DNA from: Chthoniobacteraceae bacterium
GTDB lineage: Bacteria > Verrucomicrobiota > Verrucomicrobiia > Chthoniobacterales > Chthoniobacteraceae
Assembly (NCBI GenBank): GCA_028293625.1
Contig: JAQGOL010000024.1
Location: forward strand, 1 to 64,000
Reading direction: 5' to 3'
Length of the DNA stretch: 64,000 nucleotides
The position numbers were made by a program, and so were the translations under genes. This document shows, one piece after another, positions 3,652-36,632 of this stretch. The notes under the pieces are model-generated. The model was not told the origin of the DNA. It made no database searches and was given only the letters and a program-made list of their open reading frames with translations. How positions within the stretch are numbered: the stretch's first letter is position 1; each line of letters starts with the position of its first letter.

Positions 3652-4545
3652 CTACCCTTTTAGCTGACTAAATAAAGTTCCGGCATTTTTAATGGCGTAC
3701 TCATCGCGGTCGTTATTGAAATAGGCCCAGGTTCGCGTTGCTCCACTTGTTCGAATTCTATCGGCCCATACAGCCATTTCATCGGATGTATAGTTATGCC
3801 TGTACCACTGCTTTATTCCGTGGAAGCGAACGTAAATTTCGTCCGCGGTCTTTACAAGTTCGTCCGGAAGCCGCGGTCCGCTGCAGGAGCAGAAAATCGT
3901 GCCGGAATCGCGGAAAGCCGTAAAGACCGTCTCATTCCACCAGCTGCGGTGCCGGAACTCCACGACGTTTCGCCGGGTCGGATCGAGTTGGGAAAGGATC
4001 CGGTCCAGGCGGGCGCGGGTGTAATGGAAGCTCGGTGGTAACTGAAAGAGAAAGCAGCCCATATGCGAGCCAAGCAGGTCGGCAATATGGCAGAAGTCGC
4101 GCACCAATGTCTTTGTGCCGGTAAAACGTTTGACGTGCGTAATAAGTTCCGAGGCTTTAATGGTGTAGACAAAGTCCCGCTCGCCCAGTTGGCGGACCCA
4201 TGTGCGGACTGTGGCCACCGTTGGCCAGGAGTAGAACGGCGCATTCAATTCCACTGTCTTGAAGTGGTCAGCATAGTGAGCAAACCATTCGCCTGTCGGC
4301 ATGCCCGCCGGATAAAAGCCACCACGCCAGTGCCAGTAAAACCACCCTGAACAGCCAACATTTATCGTAGGCAGGGAAGAATGCGCTTCCTGAAGTATTA
4401 AAGGGTTGTCGTGCCAGGCAATTCGGGCGGTATGCATCTTTTGCGCTCTCCCGACGTTTTCTTCTCGTTGCCTGGCGCGCCTCGCTTCCCGTTTTGCGCG
4501 GCGCTCCTCTTTGGTAAGCAACGGTTTGATTTGAGGCGCGGCCAT
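3652..4545 (-). CDS. DUF72 (YecE-like) family protein
   Basis: A 297-residue protein of the DUF72 family, which has a TIM-barrel fold and no agreed biochemical role. Family landmarks in order are GCSGW around residue 65, a VELNAPFY segment, VKRFTG, FQLPPSF, VVEFRH with SWW, and YVRFHG followed by an AYFNND block. The first 40 residues are very basic (many Arg/Lys, few hydrophobics) and look like an added tail, or the true start may lie at a later Met such as residue 37. The gene is convergent with the helicase gene and has about 125 bases between the stops. Confidence 0.85.
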   Translation of the reverse strand: MAAPQIKPLLTKEERRAKREARRARQREENVGRAQKMHTARIAWHDNPLILQEAHSSLPTINVGCSGWFYWHWRGGFYPAGMPTGEWFAHYADHFKTVELNAPFYSWPTVATVRTWVRQLGERDFVYTIKASELITHVKRFTGTKTLVRDFCHIADLLGSHMGCFLFQLPPSFHYTRARLDRILSQLDPTRRNVVEFRHRSWWNETVFTAFRDSGTIFCSCSGPRLPDELVKTADEIYVRFHGIKQWYRHNYTSDEMAVWADRIRTSGATRTWAYFNNDRDEYAIKNAGTLFSQLKG

Positions 4546-5119
4546 TTTAGCTTTTTTTAGGCAACTTAATTAGCCGCATTGTTTTCCATGGCTCCGAGAA
4601 CGCGGCGTCGAGGCACTTGTGCTGGCCTCTCTTCGGAACCGATGAATTTAAGATGCTCCATAAAAGCTCCAATTTGCTGCTTTAAGTTGTTCTCTTAACT
4701 ATTCGCAGCTCGGCAAGGGGTGGGCTCCCAGCGGATCGGTGCCGGGCCATTAAATCAGCAAGTGTCCAAAAGCCCATAAGTAGGCATTCTTCCACTTCAC
4801 AAAGCCGTTGCCAGAAACCCGGAATCGCAATCACCGTGTGCGCAAAGCCCGCCAGAGCAGGCCGCCAAACGACGTTCCGGTTTTCCCAATGAACTTGGAA
4901 GCGCCTGGTCATTCAGTGGAGCCCGTTCTGAAGACTGCGATCTGCAGCCGAATCCCAATGAACTATTTCTATCCATTCATTTGCGGAAAAGAATAGATAT
5001 GGCCCGCTGTTAGATGGTTTTCAGGTGCGGCTCCCCGAAGAAGTCGAGGTATACTCTATTGGCACGATACCGGCTAGGGGATTCCTGCAATCCGCCGATG
5101 AATTGGCGGGTTTCATCGT
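4546..5119. other. 574-base gap without a confident gene
   Basis: No supported gene. A minus-strand frame of 76 codons at 4682-4912 has no family resemblance. Just before the next start codon a small inverted repeat (CCGCC at 5092-5096, GGCGG at 5105-5109) could fold over the upstream leader. The stretch may hold diverging promoters for the DUF72 and von Willebrand genes. Confidence 0.5.
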
Positions 5120-6160
5120 ATGCTTAGCGCCTCAACTTCCCCACGTCCCCCAGCCACGTTTAGTTCTTCTCGCACTAATAACGTGATAGCTTTTATCGCC
5201 ACCACACGATTTATCACGATCTCACTGCTAATCCATTTCGTGCTTATCATTGCGAGCGGAAGCTTTGTGCTTTTCAAGGCCGATACCAGTCGCACGGATT
5301 TCATCACGGGTGGCGACGGATTTATACTAACGGCTGAGAATGCTCCTCAGATGCCAAAGGAGGATTTGATCGCGCCCGACGTTAAGCCCGAGGCTGTATC
5401 GACGCCGCCTTCTGTAGCACCGGCCATAGGTGCGATTACGTCAACAATGACGCAGACCGCTTTTACGATGGCGAGCCCCGCGTTGGGCGGCGCCGGCATA
5501 GAAGGCGTCGCGAAGTTGAATGCGCCAACCGCCGGCACAATCGGGCTTGGGACTCTCGGCAGCAGAGCCGGTGGCTCGGCGATGCGAATGTTCGGGGTCC
5601 AAAGTAAAGCAAACTCCATAGTCGTATGCCTTGATGTTTCCAGCAGCATGATAACCGGCGAGAAAAGTCTTCAGACCTACGAGGTTCTGGAGAAAGAAGT
5701 AATCAAGGTGATTCGTGATTTGAGCACCCTGGCTCGCTTTGGTGTAGTTGTCTTTTCGAAAGACGCTCAGACTTATCGTGATGTGCTGGTGCGTGCGACC
5801 AACGAGGAGAAAGACAAGGCTGTTAACTTCATCAAAAAGTTCGCGCCTATGCAGGCGCGCAATCCGAAAGCCTCCGTCGAGGAGCAGGAGTTTCATCACG
5901 GAACACGGGCAGATCGCGGACTTGAAATCGCCTTTACCATGCAGCCCGATGTGATTTTTTTTGTCTCAGATGGCGAGCCAACGGGCACTCTTCCCGCGCA
6001 AATTTTGGAGCAGGTCAAAGTCACGCAGCAGCAACTCCCGCGGCCTGCCATTATTAACGCCATCGCTTTCCTTGCGGATGGTGGCCAGAAATTTATGAAG
6101 GATCTGGCAAGCCAAAATCTTGGCGGCTTTCGAGAAATTAAGCCAAAGGACGTAAAGTGA
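5120..6160 (+). CDS. membrane-anchored von Willebrand factor A domain protein
   Basis: A 346-residue protein with one membrane segment (about residues 30-52) followed by a low-complexity Pro/Ala/Gly stretch and a vWA domain. The metal-site motif DVSSS lies at residues 172-176 and the later SDGEPTG loop supplies further metal ligands. The topology places the vWA domain outside the cytoplasm. Proteins of this layout bind partners through a metal ion; the partner is not evident, since no MoxR ATPase or secretion gene is adjacent. Start ATG 5120 is the first in frame. Confidence 0.8.
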   Translation: MLSASTSPRPPATFSSSRTNNVIAFIATTRFITISLLIHFVLIIASGSFVLFKADTSRTDFITGGDGFILTAENAPQMPKEDLIAPDVKPEAVSTPPSVAPAIGAITSTMTQTAFTMASPALGGAGIEGVAKLNAPTAGTIGLGTLGSRAGGSAMRMFGVQSKANSIVVCLDVSSSMITGEKSLQTYEVLEKEVIKVIRDLSTLARFGVVVFSKDAQTYRDVLVRATNEEKDKAVNFIKKFAPMQARNPKASVEEQEFHHGTRADRGLEIAFTMQPDVIFFVSDGEPTGTLPAQILEQVKVTQQQLPRPAIINAIAFLADGGQKFMKDLASQNLGGFREIKPKDVK

Positions 6161-6759
6161 TTCTTTCCCTTTACTCCATTTAGCCTCGTTAAGGAATCAA
6201 TGCGGTCGAGAGCTCTTAAGTAGCTCCCGGCAGGTCGGAACTTATTGCCATCGCGCCGTTAGCCGAGCATCGCATGGAATCCGCGCAGATCGGCGAAGTG
6301 CTTCGGATTAGTCAGGGCTTACGAAAGCGCCTTTGTAGGTGCCAATCGTCGATGGGAGAGTTATCTCCTGGCTCCGAGGATTTGCTGATTCGGAAAGTAA
6401 TGGCCCAGGCAGCTGATGCACATCTGTCCAGCGCCAGTGAAGTCTCTGCCCTTGCTTGATGAATAAGACATTGGTCTTAAGCACGGATTCCGGCTAAGCA
6501 ATCATCCATATGCCAGAGCAAAGCACAGTCAGGGAGCGGGCGGAGTATGGCTTGGAGACGGTTCCCGCCGACCGAATGATTTCCGTTCTGGTGAGGAATT
6601 TGTTTTGGTCTATCAGACGCTGGCCGAGTTCGTGCAGTTTTTCCATCAACCCACCCGAGGATGTTCGCTTTGATCATTCTCTGTTGCTCAACTACTTTGC
6701 GGAGACCAACAAGCGCGGAGGTGCCCAATAAGATCTCTTGACCGACCCGCAGGCAAGCT
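6161..6759. other. 600-base gap, probably eroded DNA
   Basis: Short frames on both strands (for example 6274-6459, 6510-6731 plus and 6477-6728 minus) have no recognisable protein features. I see no RNA gene or repeat. Confidence 0.5.
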
Positions 6760-31900: not shown

Positions 31901-34678
31901 ACCACACCCAGTATCAGCGTGCCTATGGTAATGACCTATGACGGCTTCGGGCGGCTTGCTCAGGTTAACGACCCGCGAACCGCCCTTGTGACGTCGATGA
32001 CATACAACGCGACTTTCCCAAGCCAGGTCGCTACGCAAACCTTGAGCGTTCCGACAGGCAGCGGCGATTCCGCAGCGGGCCAGAACCGGAGTATCCTCCA
32101 AACCTATTATACTCAGACGGACGTGACCACCGGAGCGTTAATCGGACAGCTGGCGACCCGCTCCGAGAACGGCGTTACCACCAATTATACCTATACCCTA
32201 CACGGTAAAGTGGCTCATGCCTGGGGTGGAACCTATCCACTCCAATACAAATACGATGAGCTCGACCGGTGCATGGAACTGCACACGTATCGCACTGCCC
32301 CGCCAAATCTCACCGCTGGCACATGGCCAGATGGCGATAAAACTGTTTGGTCCTACTATATTGCAACGAACGCACTTAGCAGCAAATACGATGCGGCAAG
32401 CCTTGGTACCAGTTATATGTATGATACCATGGGCAGGCTCGCCACCCGTTACGCTGGGCAAGGTGTCACGAACTACGATTTCGACTGGTTGGGACAGTTG
32501 CGCGGGACCACTTACGGCGGCAATGCCACCCCATCGGTTACCTTCAGCGCTCCGGATTCCCGGGGACGTTACACACAGTTGCTTGATGCGGCCGGTTCAC
32601 ACACGCTGGCGTACGATGCGCATGGGGTCCTAAGCGGCGATTCCATCACTTTGGGCATCCTGGATGGCGTAACTGTTTCGGCTGAGTTCGGTATTTCGGG
32701 GCGTCCTCAAAGCCAAGCGCTCACTGTCGGAGGCTCGGCTGCGGTCAGCCAGTCGTATGGATATGACCCTGCAAACGGCCGCCTGATCACAGCCAGTGAT
32801 TCCGGGCAAACGGTGTCGGTTGGCTACACTTATGTATCCAACAGCAATCTGGTGAGCGGCTCCTCCACGTCACTCAGTGGTGTTTCCAAGATGGGCGACA
32901 CCCGCGCTTTCGATAACCTCAACCGGTTGCGTAATATCACCGCGACTTATACCGGCATTGGGACCGTTGAAGCGCATACCTATGATTACAACAGCCAAGG
33001 GCAGCGCCAGCGCGACATACGCACCGACGGAAACAAGTGGGTTTACGGTTATAATAGCCGGAATGAGGTCTCAAGTGGCCAGCGCCAGCTAAGCGATGGC
33101 ACTCTGGTGATCGGGGAGAATTTCGGATATGCGTACGACGCGATCGGGAATCGAACCACGGCGACGGTCAACAGCCGTGTGAGCAGCTATATTGCTGGTA
33201 ATCTTAACCAATATTCCAGTCGCAGCGTTCCAAACCAGTTCGATGTCACAGGCGATGCCGATGCAAGCGTGCCGGTCTACGTAAACCTGATTCTGGCGGC
33301 GCGCCAGGGTGCGCGTTTCTGGGCGCAGGTGGGCGTAAACAACGCCAACTATGTTCCGGCTTGGTCGGCCGTCAATGTGCTTGGATTCAAAGCCGGCGGC
33401 GGCGGCACGAGCAACGATTACGCGCGCTCCGTGCCGGGCGCGGGTCCCAATCACGTCTTTACGCCTCCTAATCCCGAATTTTTCACATACGATCTGGACG
33501 GCAACTTGACGCAGGATGGGCGCTGGACATATACGTGGGATCTTGAGAACCGGCTGATCCGGATGGAAACCGTCTCCTGGGCTACCAATGTCGGGGTGCC
33601 TTACCAGAAGCTTGAGTTTTCTTATGACGCCCGTGGGCGTCGGATTGAGAAGCGGATCTATTTGGATACATCCACGGTGAGCAAACGCTACCGGTATGCG
33701 TATAATCTTGGCTGGTCGCTTCTTGCTGTGCTCGACGCACCGCTGAATGGCCAGTCCGGCGGCAACACCGTGAAACAGACTTTTCTTTGGGGTCAGGATC
33801 TGAGCGGTACGCTGGAAGGAGCAGGCGGTGTTGGCGGATTGCTGGCGATGAAGGATTTTGCCGGTGCCGCCGTTTATCGGTATGTGTATGATGGAAATGG
33901 TAACGTGATGAAACTCGTTAACCTCGCTACCGGAGCGGTCGGTGCTGAATATCAATATGGCCCTTTCGGAGAGCCACTGCGTGCTACCGGCACGGTAGCG
34001 GGTGAAAATCCGTTCCGGTTTTCGACTAAGTATCAGGATGGTGAGACAGGATTGCTTTATTACGGCTATCGGTATTATAAGGTAACCGATGGAAGATGGA
34101 TTAATCGAGATCTAGCAGGTGAAAAAGCTAGTAGGAACATTTATTCATTTATTGAAAATGACTCGATCAACTGTTTTGATTTTTTGGGACTAGTTTCGGG
34201 GTCATACGAAATTCCTATTGTGGTTTATGCGCAGCCAAAAAGAACGCAGCTAGGAAACTTTGATGCCAAGAGGGTCTTGACTCATAAGTGTGAACGGGAG
34301 GGGAGTTTCTTATGGTCAGGAGGATACTTTCGTTTGACTTTTAGTTGGAACGCAGACCCGGTCATTACGATACTTCCGCGTGATAACCGGAGATGGGGAG
34401 TTTATGGATTTCCTTTTGGTGCTCCATTGGATCCCATTGTAAATAGCCAATGGGAAGATGTTTCTCCCGATCAACGTGTGCAGTTAATACTTGAGCACGA
34501 ATTCCGTCATAACGACGATGCCGAAATCGCCTACAATAATATCAAAAAAACACTTACTAAATTGGAGGGGCCTTATTGTGAAAGCAGAGAATGTGAGCGA
34601 ATTGGAAGTAACGCAGTCAAAAATGGATTGCGTTCTTTTGACGCTGCTCTGGACGCGAGTCAAGCAGCTAGGAATTAG
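28955..34678 (+). CDS. Rhs/YD-repeat protein with HEXXH toxin-like tip
   Basis: A 1907-residue protein beginning with a hydrophobic export segment (residues about 17-35, followed by GGCC, possibly a lipobox). Dozens of YD-type repeats build the Rhs shell. The shell ends with the classic core FSTKYQDGETGLLYYGYRYY, GRWINRDL and NIYSF, closing at FDFLGL near residue 1746. The last 160 residues are a separate tip domain containing HEFRH (residues 1848-1852) followed by DDAE, a zinc-metallopeptidase-like site. Base composition drops sharply in the tip, as seen in exchanged polymorphic toxin tips. A small lipoprotein gene follows by 14 bases and could confer immunity. Delivery route is unclear: no type VI secretion genes are in the window. 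Confidence 0.9.
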   Translation: MKSPLPPRSLSRAAKFFTLLLAIQLFFIPLSTVVGGCCDGGNTGQASKKIKYSYGWSVIYGVTAYHVKITKTFPYPDEDGTNPKVEITESNWTSATPTSGDSKDIDDEIDAGTDVKVELSISETSAGNGCNVWIESACYGRSDGVGILSATVNKTIGNKEDLHLPAGAATTKCGSVRFALGTGDGFGAIWVEQKKLVMGSYSSAVLRYDADNKGEVIRIGVPPDRSIKQVRTPDCLAHVAEVTGGYEVRFFEPSKIGPKVNNLYTVTGGTGEANSFVTWRILNTGTSTLPKLTLTEYRPATQTSTDTTWEQTQQLVEGKVVNDSWVMKVNNSRVDRKTVDYDPNPSDYVATIKNYQIRNGVEVLVRESKETYSGDKLVSILDGPAVGGVITTYGYDLEGNRIWMKRSSDGYWEKYGKAVKTVGDSVLSDYVVRPIGDLDFASGNETTGAVQWTRRGNSGNDVVSKYNNVIIGETFTMRTQTTDSLTSQPVSVMYQWRHLEEGDSGIYSETQTYSDNAISALAGKPVLERTEEGRKREYIYEAGTLDSGLVFYLDPNGLDLRQTMTESDTESSAPIVGRSVRTVIITNAASQVRIRENYLYTAANTFSLLSREASTYDGFGNLIRVSIPIPTIVDGRILSEAGFDANGRRTWEIDETGVRTEYGSFDSAGRPLTVVRRGFAGAGASAPAQLDRTTTLDYDVLGNKLSESVSDGTTTITSSWSYDTAGRIASETVGGITTSYTYSTDLVTKGAIVTQSRSGGWSQISKSYFDGQIKSIGGTAAVARAYTYGLQDAAEPAYTHLLWTREEQGNPTIGYSTWSKTIRDWIGNVRLEEQQAPSQANTIRREHVYNSKGALAEEWLNGSRVHSIEENVLLNNRTETRWLSPSASVVSTQTVSVEQNGGWWRVTTTPEGVLKEQLSGFSNIAGLGWLTGRRLFINLANETSDSMTYIDRASKLVRQRQSRVGITGIDESLSRNGLEESRTTPSISVPMVMTYDGFGRLAQVNDPRTALVTSMTYNATFPSQVATQTLSVPTGSGDSAAGQNRSILQTYYTQTDVTTGALIGQLATRSENGVTTNYTYTLHGKVAHAWGGTYPLQYKYDELDRCMELHTYRTAPPNLTAGTWPDGDKTVWSYYIATNALSSKYDAASLGTSYMYDTMGRLATRYAGQGVTNYDFDWLGQLRGTTYGGNATPSVTFSAPDSRGRYTQLLDAAGSHTLAYDAHGVLSGDSITLGILDGVTVSAEFGISGRPQSQALTVGGSAAVSQSYGYDPANGRLITASDSGQTVSVGYTYVSNSNLVSGSSTSLSGVSKMGDTRAFDNLNRLRNITATYTGIGTVEAHTYDYNSQGQRQRDIRTDGNKWVYGYNSRNEVSSGQRQLSDGTLVIGENFGYAYDAIGNRTTATVNSRVSSYIAGNLNQYSSRSVPNQFDVTGDADASVPVYVNLILAARQGARFWAQVGVNNANYVPAWSAVNVLGFKAGGGGTSNDYARSVPGAGPNHVFTPPNPEFFTYDLDGNLTQDGRWTYTWDLENRLIRMETVSWATNVGVPYQKLEFSYDARGRRIEKRIYLDTSTVSKRYRYAYNLGWSLLAVLDAPLNGQSGGNTVKQTFLWGQDLSGTLEGAGGVGGLLAMKDFAGAAVYRYVYDGNGNVMKLVNLATGAVGAEYQYGPFGEPLRATGTVAGENPFRFSTKYQDGETGLLYYGYRYYKVTDGRWINRDLAGEKASRNIYSFIENDSINCFDFLGLVSGSYEIPIVVYAQPKRTQLGNFDAKRVLTHKCEREGSFLWSGGYFRLTFSWNADPVITILPRDNRRWGVYGFPFGAPLDPIVNSQWEDVSPDQRVQLILEHEFRHNDDAEIAYNNIKKTLTKLEGPYCESRECERIGSNAVKNGLRSFDAALDASQAARN

Positions 34679-34692
34679 CCTAAAATTTCTTT

Positions 34693-35259
34693 ATGATATT
34701 CAGATACTTCAAATTTTGTATATACATTGTATTTTTTTTCATTGTGTTCGTGATTTCATTGGCTTCGTGTGGGCGTAATCCTCAAAATACAGTAGTAGTC
34801 AATACATGGGTCGATAACGTCGTTTTGAAATGGAGCGTGGACAAATCTGGATTAGCGATGGCATTGATGCCTATGAAATCTTTCTATAGAGGGGATGAAC
34901 CGATCGAACTATTGATTGCTTTACAAAATCGATCCGGTAAATCCATAGACTTTATAGCCCCAGCAGAAATCACAGGAGAGTTTGGGTTATTTGTACTTCA
35001 CGCTGACGCACCCGATGGATCGACCTGCTTTGATTCATCAGTTCATCATCCCGGCACGGGTGCATTAACAGCTGATCAATTGGCTATAGGCGAAACCCGA
35101 CTGTTCAGGTTTTCGTTAACTTCTCCACTTTGGCATACTGAAGTCCTAGGTGATTACAAGTTATCGCTTATTTACAATGATCAGGGCATAGTCGATCAAA
35201 GGGCAAAAGTTTATATAAACACTCCTAGCATGACAGTCCGGCGGGAAGAAAAAAAGTAG
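34693..35259 (+). CDS. putative lipoprotein, possible immunity protein to the Rhs tip
   Basis: A 188-residue protein with a very hydrophobic N-terminus ending in LASC, a good lipobox (Cys about residue 26), so the mature form should be membrane-anchored outside the cytoplasm. The remainder is beta-rich with FYRGDEPIELLIALQNRSGK and LGDYKLSLIYN, resembling an immunoglobulin-like or beta-sandwich fold. I recognise no family. The gene starts 14 bases after the Rhs stop, is AT-rich like the Rhs tip and unlike the genes further out, and occupies the place where immunity genes normally sit. Immunity is inferred from position and composition only. Confidence 0.6.
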   Translation: MIFRYFKFCIYIVFFFIVFVISLASCGRNPQNTVVVNTWVDNVVLKWSVDKSGLAMALMPMKSFYRGDEPIELLIALQNRSGKSIDFIAPAEITGEFGLFVLHADAPDGSTCFDSSVHHPGTGALTADQLAIGETRLFRFSLTSPLWHTEVLGDYKLSLIYNDQGIVDQRAKVYINTPSMTVRREEKK

Positions 35260-35302
35260 TGTAAGCCACTGGCTGGGGACCCCCAAGGACATGGCTGAAG
35301 CG

Positions 35303-35352
35303 ACCACAGGGACAGGCACTTTCTCAGAAAGAGGCATTGACCTACCGTCGAA
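35303..35352. repeat. REP-like element, copy 1
   Basis: A 50-base sequence around the core ACAGGGACAGGCAC followed by the symmetric CTTTCTCAGAAAG and ending CTACCGTCGAA. Two more copies begin at about 35360 and 35531. RAYTs are accompanied by such repeats, and the transposase gene lies just downstream. Confidence 0.7.
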
Positions 35353-35359
35353 AAAAGGG

Positions 35360-35527
35360 ACTACAGGGACAGACACTTTCTCAGGAAAGACGCATTGACC
35401 TACCGTCGAAGCCGGTAAACGGTTTTCAGCATGCGATACGGGAGGAGTCGGGCGGCGGCGGACGCGGAGGTAGCTTATTACCACTGCTTTTCGAGAGTGG
35501 TCGATAAGCGCTTCGCTTTCAGAGTGA
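35360..35527 (+). repeat. tandem duplication unit A (REP-like element plus transposase 5' end)
   Basis: This unit of about 168 bases is repeated as 35530-35694 with an offset of 170 bases, one indel and only scattered mismatches. It contains the second REP-like copy and the first codons of a transposase gene. Confidence 0.85.
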
Positions 35528-35568
35528 GGGACCACAGGGACAGGCACTTTCTCAGAAAGAGGCCTTGA
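35431..35568 (+). pseudogene. truncated 5' end of a RAYT gene
   Basis: ATG 35431 opens a frame identical in kind to the start of the complete transposase (MRYGRSRAAADAEVAYYHC versus MRYGRIRAAADAEVAYYHC). After about 30 residues the homology ends, where unit B begins, and the frame runs into the third REP-like copy, closing at 35568. It is a broken duplicate created by the tandem repeat, not a working gene. Confidence 0.85.
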
Positions 35569-35694
35569 TCTACCGTCGAAGCCAGTAAACGGTTTTTGGC
35601 ATGCGATACGGGAGGATTCGGGCGGCGGCGGACGCGGAGGTGGCTTATTACCACTGCTTTTCGAGGGTGGTCGATAAGCGCTTCGTTTTCGGAG
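35530..35694 (+). repeat. tandem duplication unit B (REP-like copy 3 plus start of the intact RAYT)
   Basis: The second unit of the duplication. Its REP-like element occupies about 35531-35580 and its coding part is the real 5' end of the transposase gene starting at 35601. Comparison with unit A gives the order REP-like element, about 20 bases, ATG. Confidence 0.85.
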
Positions 35695-36632
35695 ATCTGG
35701 AAAAGGAACGCTTCGTCAAGTTCATGCGCGCCTATGAGGAATTTTGCGGCGTGCGGATCGTGACCTTTTGCGTGATGAGTAATCATTTCCATCTGTTAGT
35801 GGAGGTGCCGCACCGGCCCGCGCCGGAGCTTCTGCCAACCGATGAAGAGCTTGTTCGGTTGGTCAAAGTTGCCGACTGCAGTTATGGCAGCGTCCAGCTG
35901 GCCCTGGATCTAAAGGAACTGCGCGAAGCGGGCTCGGGAGCCGAGGAGCTTCGGGAACGTTTCTTTAGCCGGATGTGGGATGTGAGTGCGTTTCTTCAGA
36001 TCTTAAAGCAATGTTTTACCCAATGGTTCAATGGGGTTCATGATCGGGAAGGCACACTCTGGGAAAGCCGCTTTAAGAGCATGCTGGTGGAAGGAGCAGG
36101 GGAGGCGCTCGCTACGATGGCCGCCTATATTGATCTGAATCCGATCCGTGCCGGAATAGTAAAGGATCCAAAGGAGTATCGCTGGTGTGGTTATGCGCAA
36201 GCTGTGCAGGGCCGCAAGCGTGCACGGGAAGGATTGCGGATCGCCATCGAGGCGCGTTTTGGCGAGGAGATTCCCATGTGGAAAGTGATGGCCTTTTACC
36301 GGAAGTATCTTTTTGAAGAAGGCGTGGAGCGGTTGGCCGGGGAGGATGGCACGCCGGCGCGCCGTGGTTTTAGCGAAGCGGCGGTGGAAGAAGTGCTCAA
36401 AGCGGGAGGCAAGCTTGGACTTTACGACGCGTTGCGATGCCGGATGCGCTATTTCTGTGACGGGATGGTCTTGGGCAGCAAATCGTTTGTGGAGGAATTC
36501 TTTCGATTGAACCGTGGGCGATTTGGTGCGCGGCGTGAGAGCGGGGCTCGGCCCTTGAAGCGGCTTGATATGCCTGGTCTTTATACGGTCCGCGATTTGC
36601 GGAGCGGCGTGATCACGCCATCCAAAGCCTGA
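35601..36632 (+). CDS. REP-associated tyrosine transposase (RAYT), complete
   Basis: A 343-residue Y1-type enzyme of the HUH superfamily. The HUH motif is NHFHLL (His 62 and 64) and the likely nucleophilic tyrosine is Tyr176 in AAYIDLNPIR. After the catalytic core an extension of about 150 residues contains RYFCDGMVLGS, FGARRESGARPL and DLRSG, as in the partial copy at the window start. RAYTs nick and join single-stranded DNA at REP palindromes and are usually kept as single-copy chromosomal genes. REP-like elements lie directly upstream and an inverted one about 310 bases downstream. ATG 35601 is confirmed by comparison with the broken duplicate. Confidence 0.93.
   Translation: MRYGRIRAAADAEVAYYHCFSRVVDKRFVFGDLEKERFVKFMRAYEEFCGVRIVTFCVMSNHFHLLVEVPHRPAPELLPTDEELVRLVKVADCSYGSVQLALDLKELREAGSGAEELRERFFSRMWDVSAFLQILKQCFTQWFNGVHDREGTLWESRFKSMLVEGAGEALATMAAYIDLNPIRAGIVKDPKEYRWCGYAQAVQGRKRAREGLRIAIEARFGEEIPMWKVMAFYRKYLFEEGVERLAGEDGTPARRGFSEAAVEEVLKAGGKLGLYDALRCRMRYFCDGMVLGSKSFVEEFFRLNRGRFGARRESGARPLKRLDMPGLYTVRDLRSGVITPSKA

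Follow-up and report, generated by a model that had tools for sequence, protein, structure and literature searches.

Zincin-type tips on Rhs proteins and immunity proteins stationed in the cell envelope are both already known. The VgrG2b/PA0261 and Tpe1/Tpi1 pairs combine a metallopeptidase domain that acts in the periplasm with a periplasmic, inner-membrane or lipoprotein partner that neutralises it (PMC6899460). Among Rhs proteins, the Tox-MPTase1-5 and PVC-metallopeptidase tips carry an HExxH motif and are predicted toxins of the zincin type; the table of the same survey lists no immunity protein for Tox-MPTase1-5, and toxin-processing metallopeptidases are known from PVC-type systems (PMC3482391). 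A further family, DUF922 (PF06037), is a predicted zincin or secreted zinc protease whose best structural match is thermolysin (PMC3650047), and the literature that was searched gave no link between DUF922 and Rhs proteins.

The window, by which we mean the whole 64,000-nucleotide stretch of DNA that was analysed, contains an Rhs gene followed by a gene for a small lipoprotein (Table 1). The encoded Rhs protein runs from a hydrophobic N-terminal stretch, which judged by eye resembles an export signal, through RHS/YD repeats and the Rhs core to a C-terminal tip, and this succession of repeats, core and variable tip is the layout of Rhs polymorphic toxins. The TIGR03696 core match stops exactly at residue 1746, the last residue of FDFLGL (residues 1741-1746), and the aspartates of the RD..G / FDFLG pair are present in the core; in other Rhs proteins, aspartyl autocleavage has been described (PMC8636562). 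The initial annotation had described an HEFRH motif behind FDFLGL, where it indeed lies, followed by DDAE, which is present at residues 1854-1857 and is separated from the motif by one Asn rather than following it immediately. The start of the tip, placed at 34192, had to be corrected by one base, the in-frame tip occupying 34193-34675. The explanation that we consider probable is that the tip is a zincin-like envelope peptidase toxin and the lipoprotein its immunity protein, the two forming a cassette that is exchanged as one unit at the 3' end of the gene for an exported Rhs protein.

Table 1 Coordinates of the Rhs gene, its tip and the adjacent lipoprotein gene in the window
Feature	Position	Strand	Basis
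Rhs gene, 1907 aa	28955..34678	+	ORF; RHS_repeat PF05593, TIGR03696/TIGR01643 matches
Rhs-associated core, residues 1668-1746, ends FDFLGL	33956..34192	+	TIGR03696, 6.5e-17
Tip, 161 aa, founding member of the five-member DUF922-like family	34193..34675	+	homologues, alignment
Invariant Cys, tip residue 33 = protein residue 1779	34289..34291	+	alignment
HEFRH, residues 1848-1852, candidate zinc site	34496..34510	+	alignment, positions
Invariant Cys, tip residue 134 = protein residue 1880	34592..34594	+	alignment
Asp, tip residue 153 = protein residue 1899, tentative third ligand	34649..34651	+	position relative to homologues
Gene for the presumed immunity lipoprotein, 188 aa	34693..35259	+	ORF, lipobox
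Lipoprotein signal peptide and lipobox (...SLAS-Cys26)	34693..34770	+	PS51257-type pattern

On its own, the window tip has no match in Pfam (to E 10) or NCBIfam, and PDB sequence searches with the tip and with the tip profile brought nothing credible. Whole genomes of the phylum were searched with the window tip and then with growing profiles, which yielded the tips designated L003, L019 and L022; a scan of contigs recovered L003 under the name L028 (a Kiritimatiellae MAG) and L022 under the name L030, and contributed L029 as a further tip, L029 and L030 both being Verrucomicrobia MAGs. The resulting family has five members, namely the window, L003/L028, L019, L022/L030 and L029. All four related tips come from Verrucomicrobiota, and each is placed behind an Rhs core. 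In the alignment their identity to the window tip is only 17-24%, and eleven residues are invariant in all five (in window-tip numbering C33, F50, W68, D80, V83, W87, R95, H102, E103, H106 and C134). Conservation of the HExxH motif among homologues, which the initial annotation had named as a point on which its proposal could fail, thus extends to every homologue that the remote homology search returned. Across the 213 genomes of the order to which the window's bacterium belongs, the tip occurs in the window's genome only, and plasmids contained no match to either the window tip or the L003 tip. Several candidates were discarded along the way: L004, L006, L010 and L014 were weak single-sequence matches in unrelated genes or off frame, and L023 is surrounded by unrelated genes with no Rhs gene there.

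A motif as short as HEFRH might arise by chance in an unrelated domain, with the lipoprotein gene merely adjacent, and that the window tip alone finds no database match agrees with this idea. HExxH appears in only 0.3% of shuffled window tips, however, and it is kept in diverged homologues, so the motif is not a chance occurrence; with both motif and neighbour recurring in four diverged homologues, coincidence is a barely credible account of the locus.

The closest described family to the tips is DUF922. The L003 tip is the best-scoring member against PF06037 (17.6 bits, E 0.0043; gathering cut-off 27 bits), and a profile of all five tips aligned with canonical DUF922 over the W..HExxH..C region (hhalign E 9.1e-5, 59% probability). 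Canonical DUF922 likewise contains two invariant cysteines flanking the motif, at places that match those of the tips, and HMMER cross-searches between tips and DUF922 agree, but weakly. The window tip by itself has no DUF922 match in Pfam, and its direct comparison with DUF922 is weak and does not separate from shuffles. Furthermore, the C-terminal D..T.HG signature that is invariant in the DUF922 alignment is absent from all five tips. Because neither the gathering score nor the T.HG signature is reached, the family is best described as remotely related to DUF922, and DUF922-like is a better name for it than DUF922. The tips also resemble Tox-MPTase1-5 and PVC-metallopeptidase tips in being HExxH domains at the end of Rhs proteins, and differ from them in that neither the window tip nor other members match any of these families in Pfam up to E 10.

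DUF922 itself is found in the phylum at the end of Rhs proteins, at two loci above the cut-off (L032 and L033) and at one below it (L034). At each of these three loci the DUF922 tip directly precedes a protein with a signal-peptide-like start. A DUF922 profile search of four genomes found nothing.

The proposal that the tip is a zinc peptidase stands in part. In its favour are the HExxH motif in five of five tips and the remote likeness to DUF922; the third zinc ligand, in turn, is tentative and is least clear in the window copy. Specifically, the residue at Cys-1 reads E/E/Q/D/E across the five tips, so that the usual third ligand varies, and the position Cys+19 is acidic (E or D) in four of the five, the window tip having Leu there and Asp one position later. 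The AlphaFold model of the tip is too poor to use (pLDDT 44); in it, HExxH falls within a predicted long helix, with a second helix next. The unclear third ligand, together with the absence of any relative among solved structures, is also compatible with a zincin-fold envelope toxin that is not a peptidase, one that would cleave a different kind of bond (such as one in peptidoglycan) or whose catalysis was lost in the window copy, with the lipoprotein still providing immunity. A PDB profile search with the tips gave no metallopeptidase among the matches listed. Since HExxH is invariant and the nearest family, DUF922, is a predicted protease, we regard a non-peptidase toxin as unlikely and prefer a zincin-like peptidase.

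The second half of the proposed pair is the gene that starts 14 nt after the Rhs stop codon. As the initial annotation had stated, it encodes a lipobox protein (LASC, with Cys26 identified by a PS51257-type pattern). In all five members of the family, the Rhs gene is immediately followed on its own strand, at -4 to +14 nt from its stop codon, by a gene for a lipobox protein, the start of the L022/L030 partner being taken at an internal ATG. For comparison, the genes behind twelve other Rhs genes were inspected, comprising nine further Rhs genes (two from the window's own genome and seven from the phylum), two DUF922-type tips and a second cassette at L030. Only one of these twelve, the L030 second cassette, is followed by a lipobox protein (L049 was judged by eye); the difference from five of five corresponds to a Fisher p of about 0.001 in a sample that is small and was not blindly drawn, and several of the comparison partners also look exported or membrane-bound.

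Base composition sets the pair apart from its surroundings, and the initial annotation was right that the lipoprotein gene shares the low G+C content of the tip. The G+C fraction falls from 0.539 in the core to 0.447 in the tip and 0.410 in the lipoprotein gene, and rises to 0.562 in the DNA beyond, so that the tip (44.7%) and lipoprotein gene (41.0%) form one block beside a 53.9% core. Low G+C already marks the final ~140 nt of the core (0.343), which places the beginning of the block slightly before the tip. A single low-GC block over both genes fits a cassette that was acquired together.

This arrangement also bears on whether the HExxH domain is a toxin at all. It could instead be a peptidase for processing or release of the Rhs protein, of which the toxin-processing metallopeptidases of PVC-type systems would be a precedent (PMC3482391), or a non-toxic surface domain, given that some Rhs proteins of the same genome end in non-toxin domains. 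The tip, however, sits at the extreme C-terminus behind the core, is variable and exchanged between Rhs cores, and comes in every member with a partner gene of its own, all of which argues for a toxin and makes a processing or surface role very unlikely.

At L028 and L029, toxin and partner have diverged together: the toxins are 50% identical and their lipoproteins are homologous at 40% identity. Viral contigs contained no relative of this pair. Across the whole family, the lipoproteins make up several sequence groups that appear unrelated. For the window and L019 partners, no relation emerged either to the L003 partner or between the two, and the L022 partner, which was compared with the L028/L029 family, showed none to that family. 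Membership of the L019 and L022 lipoproteins in the L003/L029 lipoprotein family was tested and is unsupported.

The window lipoprotein has no useful match in Pfam or NCBIfam (Pfam to E 10). Its mature part shows the sequence pattern of an Ig-like beta-sandwich, and a search of 288 genomes with the lipoprotein returned weak Ig-domain matches only, among them L037 and L039, which are exported proteins at unrelated loci. A profile of these two and the window lipoprotein matched arrestins and the Bacillus subtilis proteinase inhibitor IPI in the PDB at E values of at least 0.1, which suggests a type of fold and no more. The likeness to IPI / BsuPI (PF12690, PMC3901451) consists of the Ig-like pattern and a weak hit of the profile on 3isy (E 0.45), and it is offset by the lack of a Pfam match of the lipoprotein up to E 10 and by the better score of arrestin. 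The AlphaFold model of the lipoprotein is unusable (pLDDT 32).

The window lipoprotein might be an unrelated exported protein, such as a surface or delivery factor, next to a genuine peptidase toxin. Such a role would agree with its lack of relation to the L003/L029 and L019 partners and with the exported Ig-like-domain proteins at unrelated loci of the phylum. Against it stand the 14-nt gap, the common low G+C content, the lipobox neighbours in five of five members and the fact that the genome holds no second copy of the lipoprotein. Nor did any confident relative of the lipoprotein turn up away from the tip in the 288 genomes searched, an occurrence that had been named beforehand as evidence against pairing. 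We therefore find a lipoprotein without immunity function quite improbable, slightly more so than a toxin that is no peptidase, and retain the reading of the lipoprotein as immunity protein. The combined proposal of an envelope-acting zinc-peptidase toxin with lipoprotein immunity is plausible and has gained support from motif, lipobox partner and DUF922 likeness, the third ligand and the identity of the partner being its weaker points.

Compared with VgrG2b-PA0261 and Tpe1-Tpi1, the locus shares a C-terminal HExxH domain on a modular protein, a small gene directly downstream and an envelope-directed partner, which is a lipoprotein in Enterobacteriaceae and, by lipobox prediction, in all five cases here; the carrier differs, VgrG2b sitting on a T6SS spike and the window protein being an Rhs protein. 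From such parallels and from the sequences we infer a course of events that covers export, delivery, zinc binding, peptidase activity, target, toxicity, place of action and immunity. Specifically, the Rhs protein would be exported, and the tip may be released from the Rhs shell after the core by aspartyl autocleavage as in other Rhs proteins. The released zincin-like tip would then most likely cut a protein in a competitor's periplasm or outer envelope, the lipobox of the partner and the paired cysteines both pointing to an envelope target. The producer, in turn, would be guarded by the lipoprotein, which would be anchored in the producer's envelope and probably act by direct binding.

The tip family, its link to DUF922 and the apparently unrelated set of lipoproteins are undescribed in the sources searched, and the family and its partners appear to be new. 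If the proposed function is right, it gives DUF922-like HExxH domains, so far labelled only as predicted proteases, a function that can be tested, and it would extend envelope-targeting peptidase toxins from the T6SS spikes of Proteobacteria to the Rhs proteins of Verrucomicrobiota. A bolder and distinctly tentative idea, which we hold to be possible rather than probable, is that unrelated lipoproteins, the window one Ig-like, were repeatedly recruited as immunity proteins for new envelope-acting Rhs peptidase toxins of Verrucomicrobiota, and that the window lipoprotein is an undescribed type of metallopeptidase inhibitor. Unrelated lipoprotein partners on a single toxin family would give a clear-cut example of one immunity protein replacing another.

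Further Rhs genes and the flanking DNA provided additional observations. At L030, the second Rhs cassette comes after the first, at positions 3987-6400; its tip looks hydrolase-like by eye, and a small lipobox protein follows. In the window's own genome, another Rhs protein (G000:C35, L049) ends in a LysM-looking domain without a toxin-like tip, and one genome of the phylum (G006) has 46 Rhs core matches, many of them clustered. Directly 3' of the lipoprotein gene, positions 35299-35694 of the window carry repeats (140 nt at 92%, plus units of 33-54 nt) that duplicate the start of the open reading frame at 35601-36632, whose product looks by eye like a REP-associated (Y1-type) transposase.
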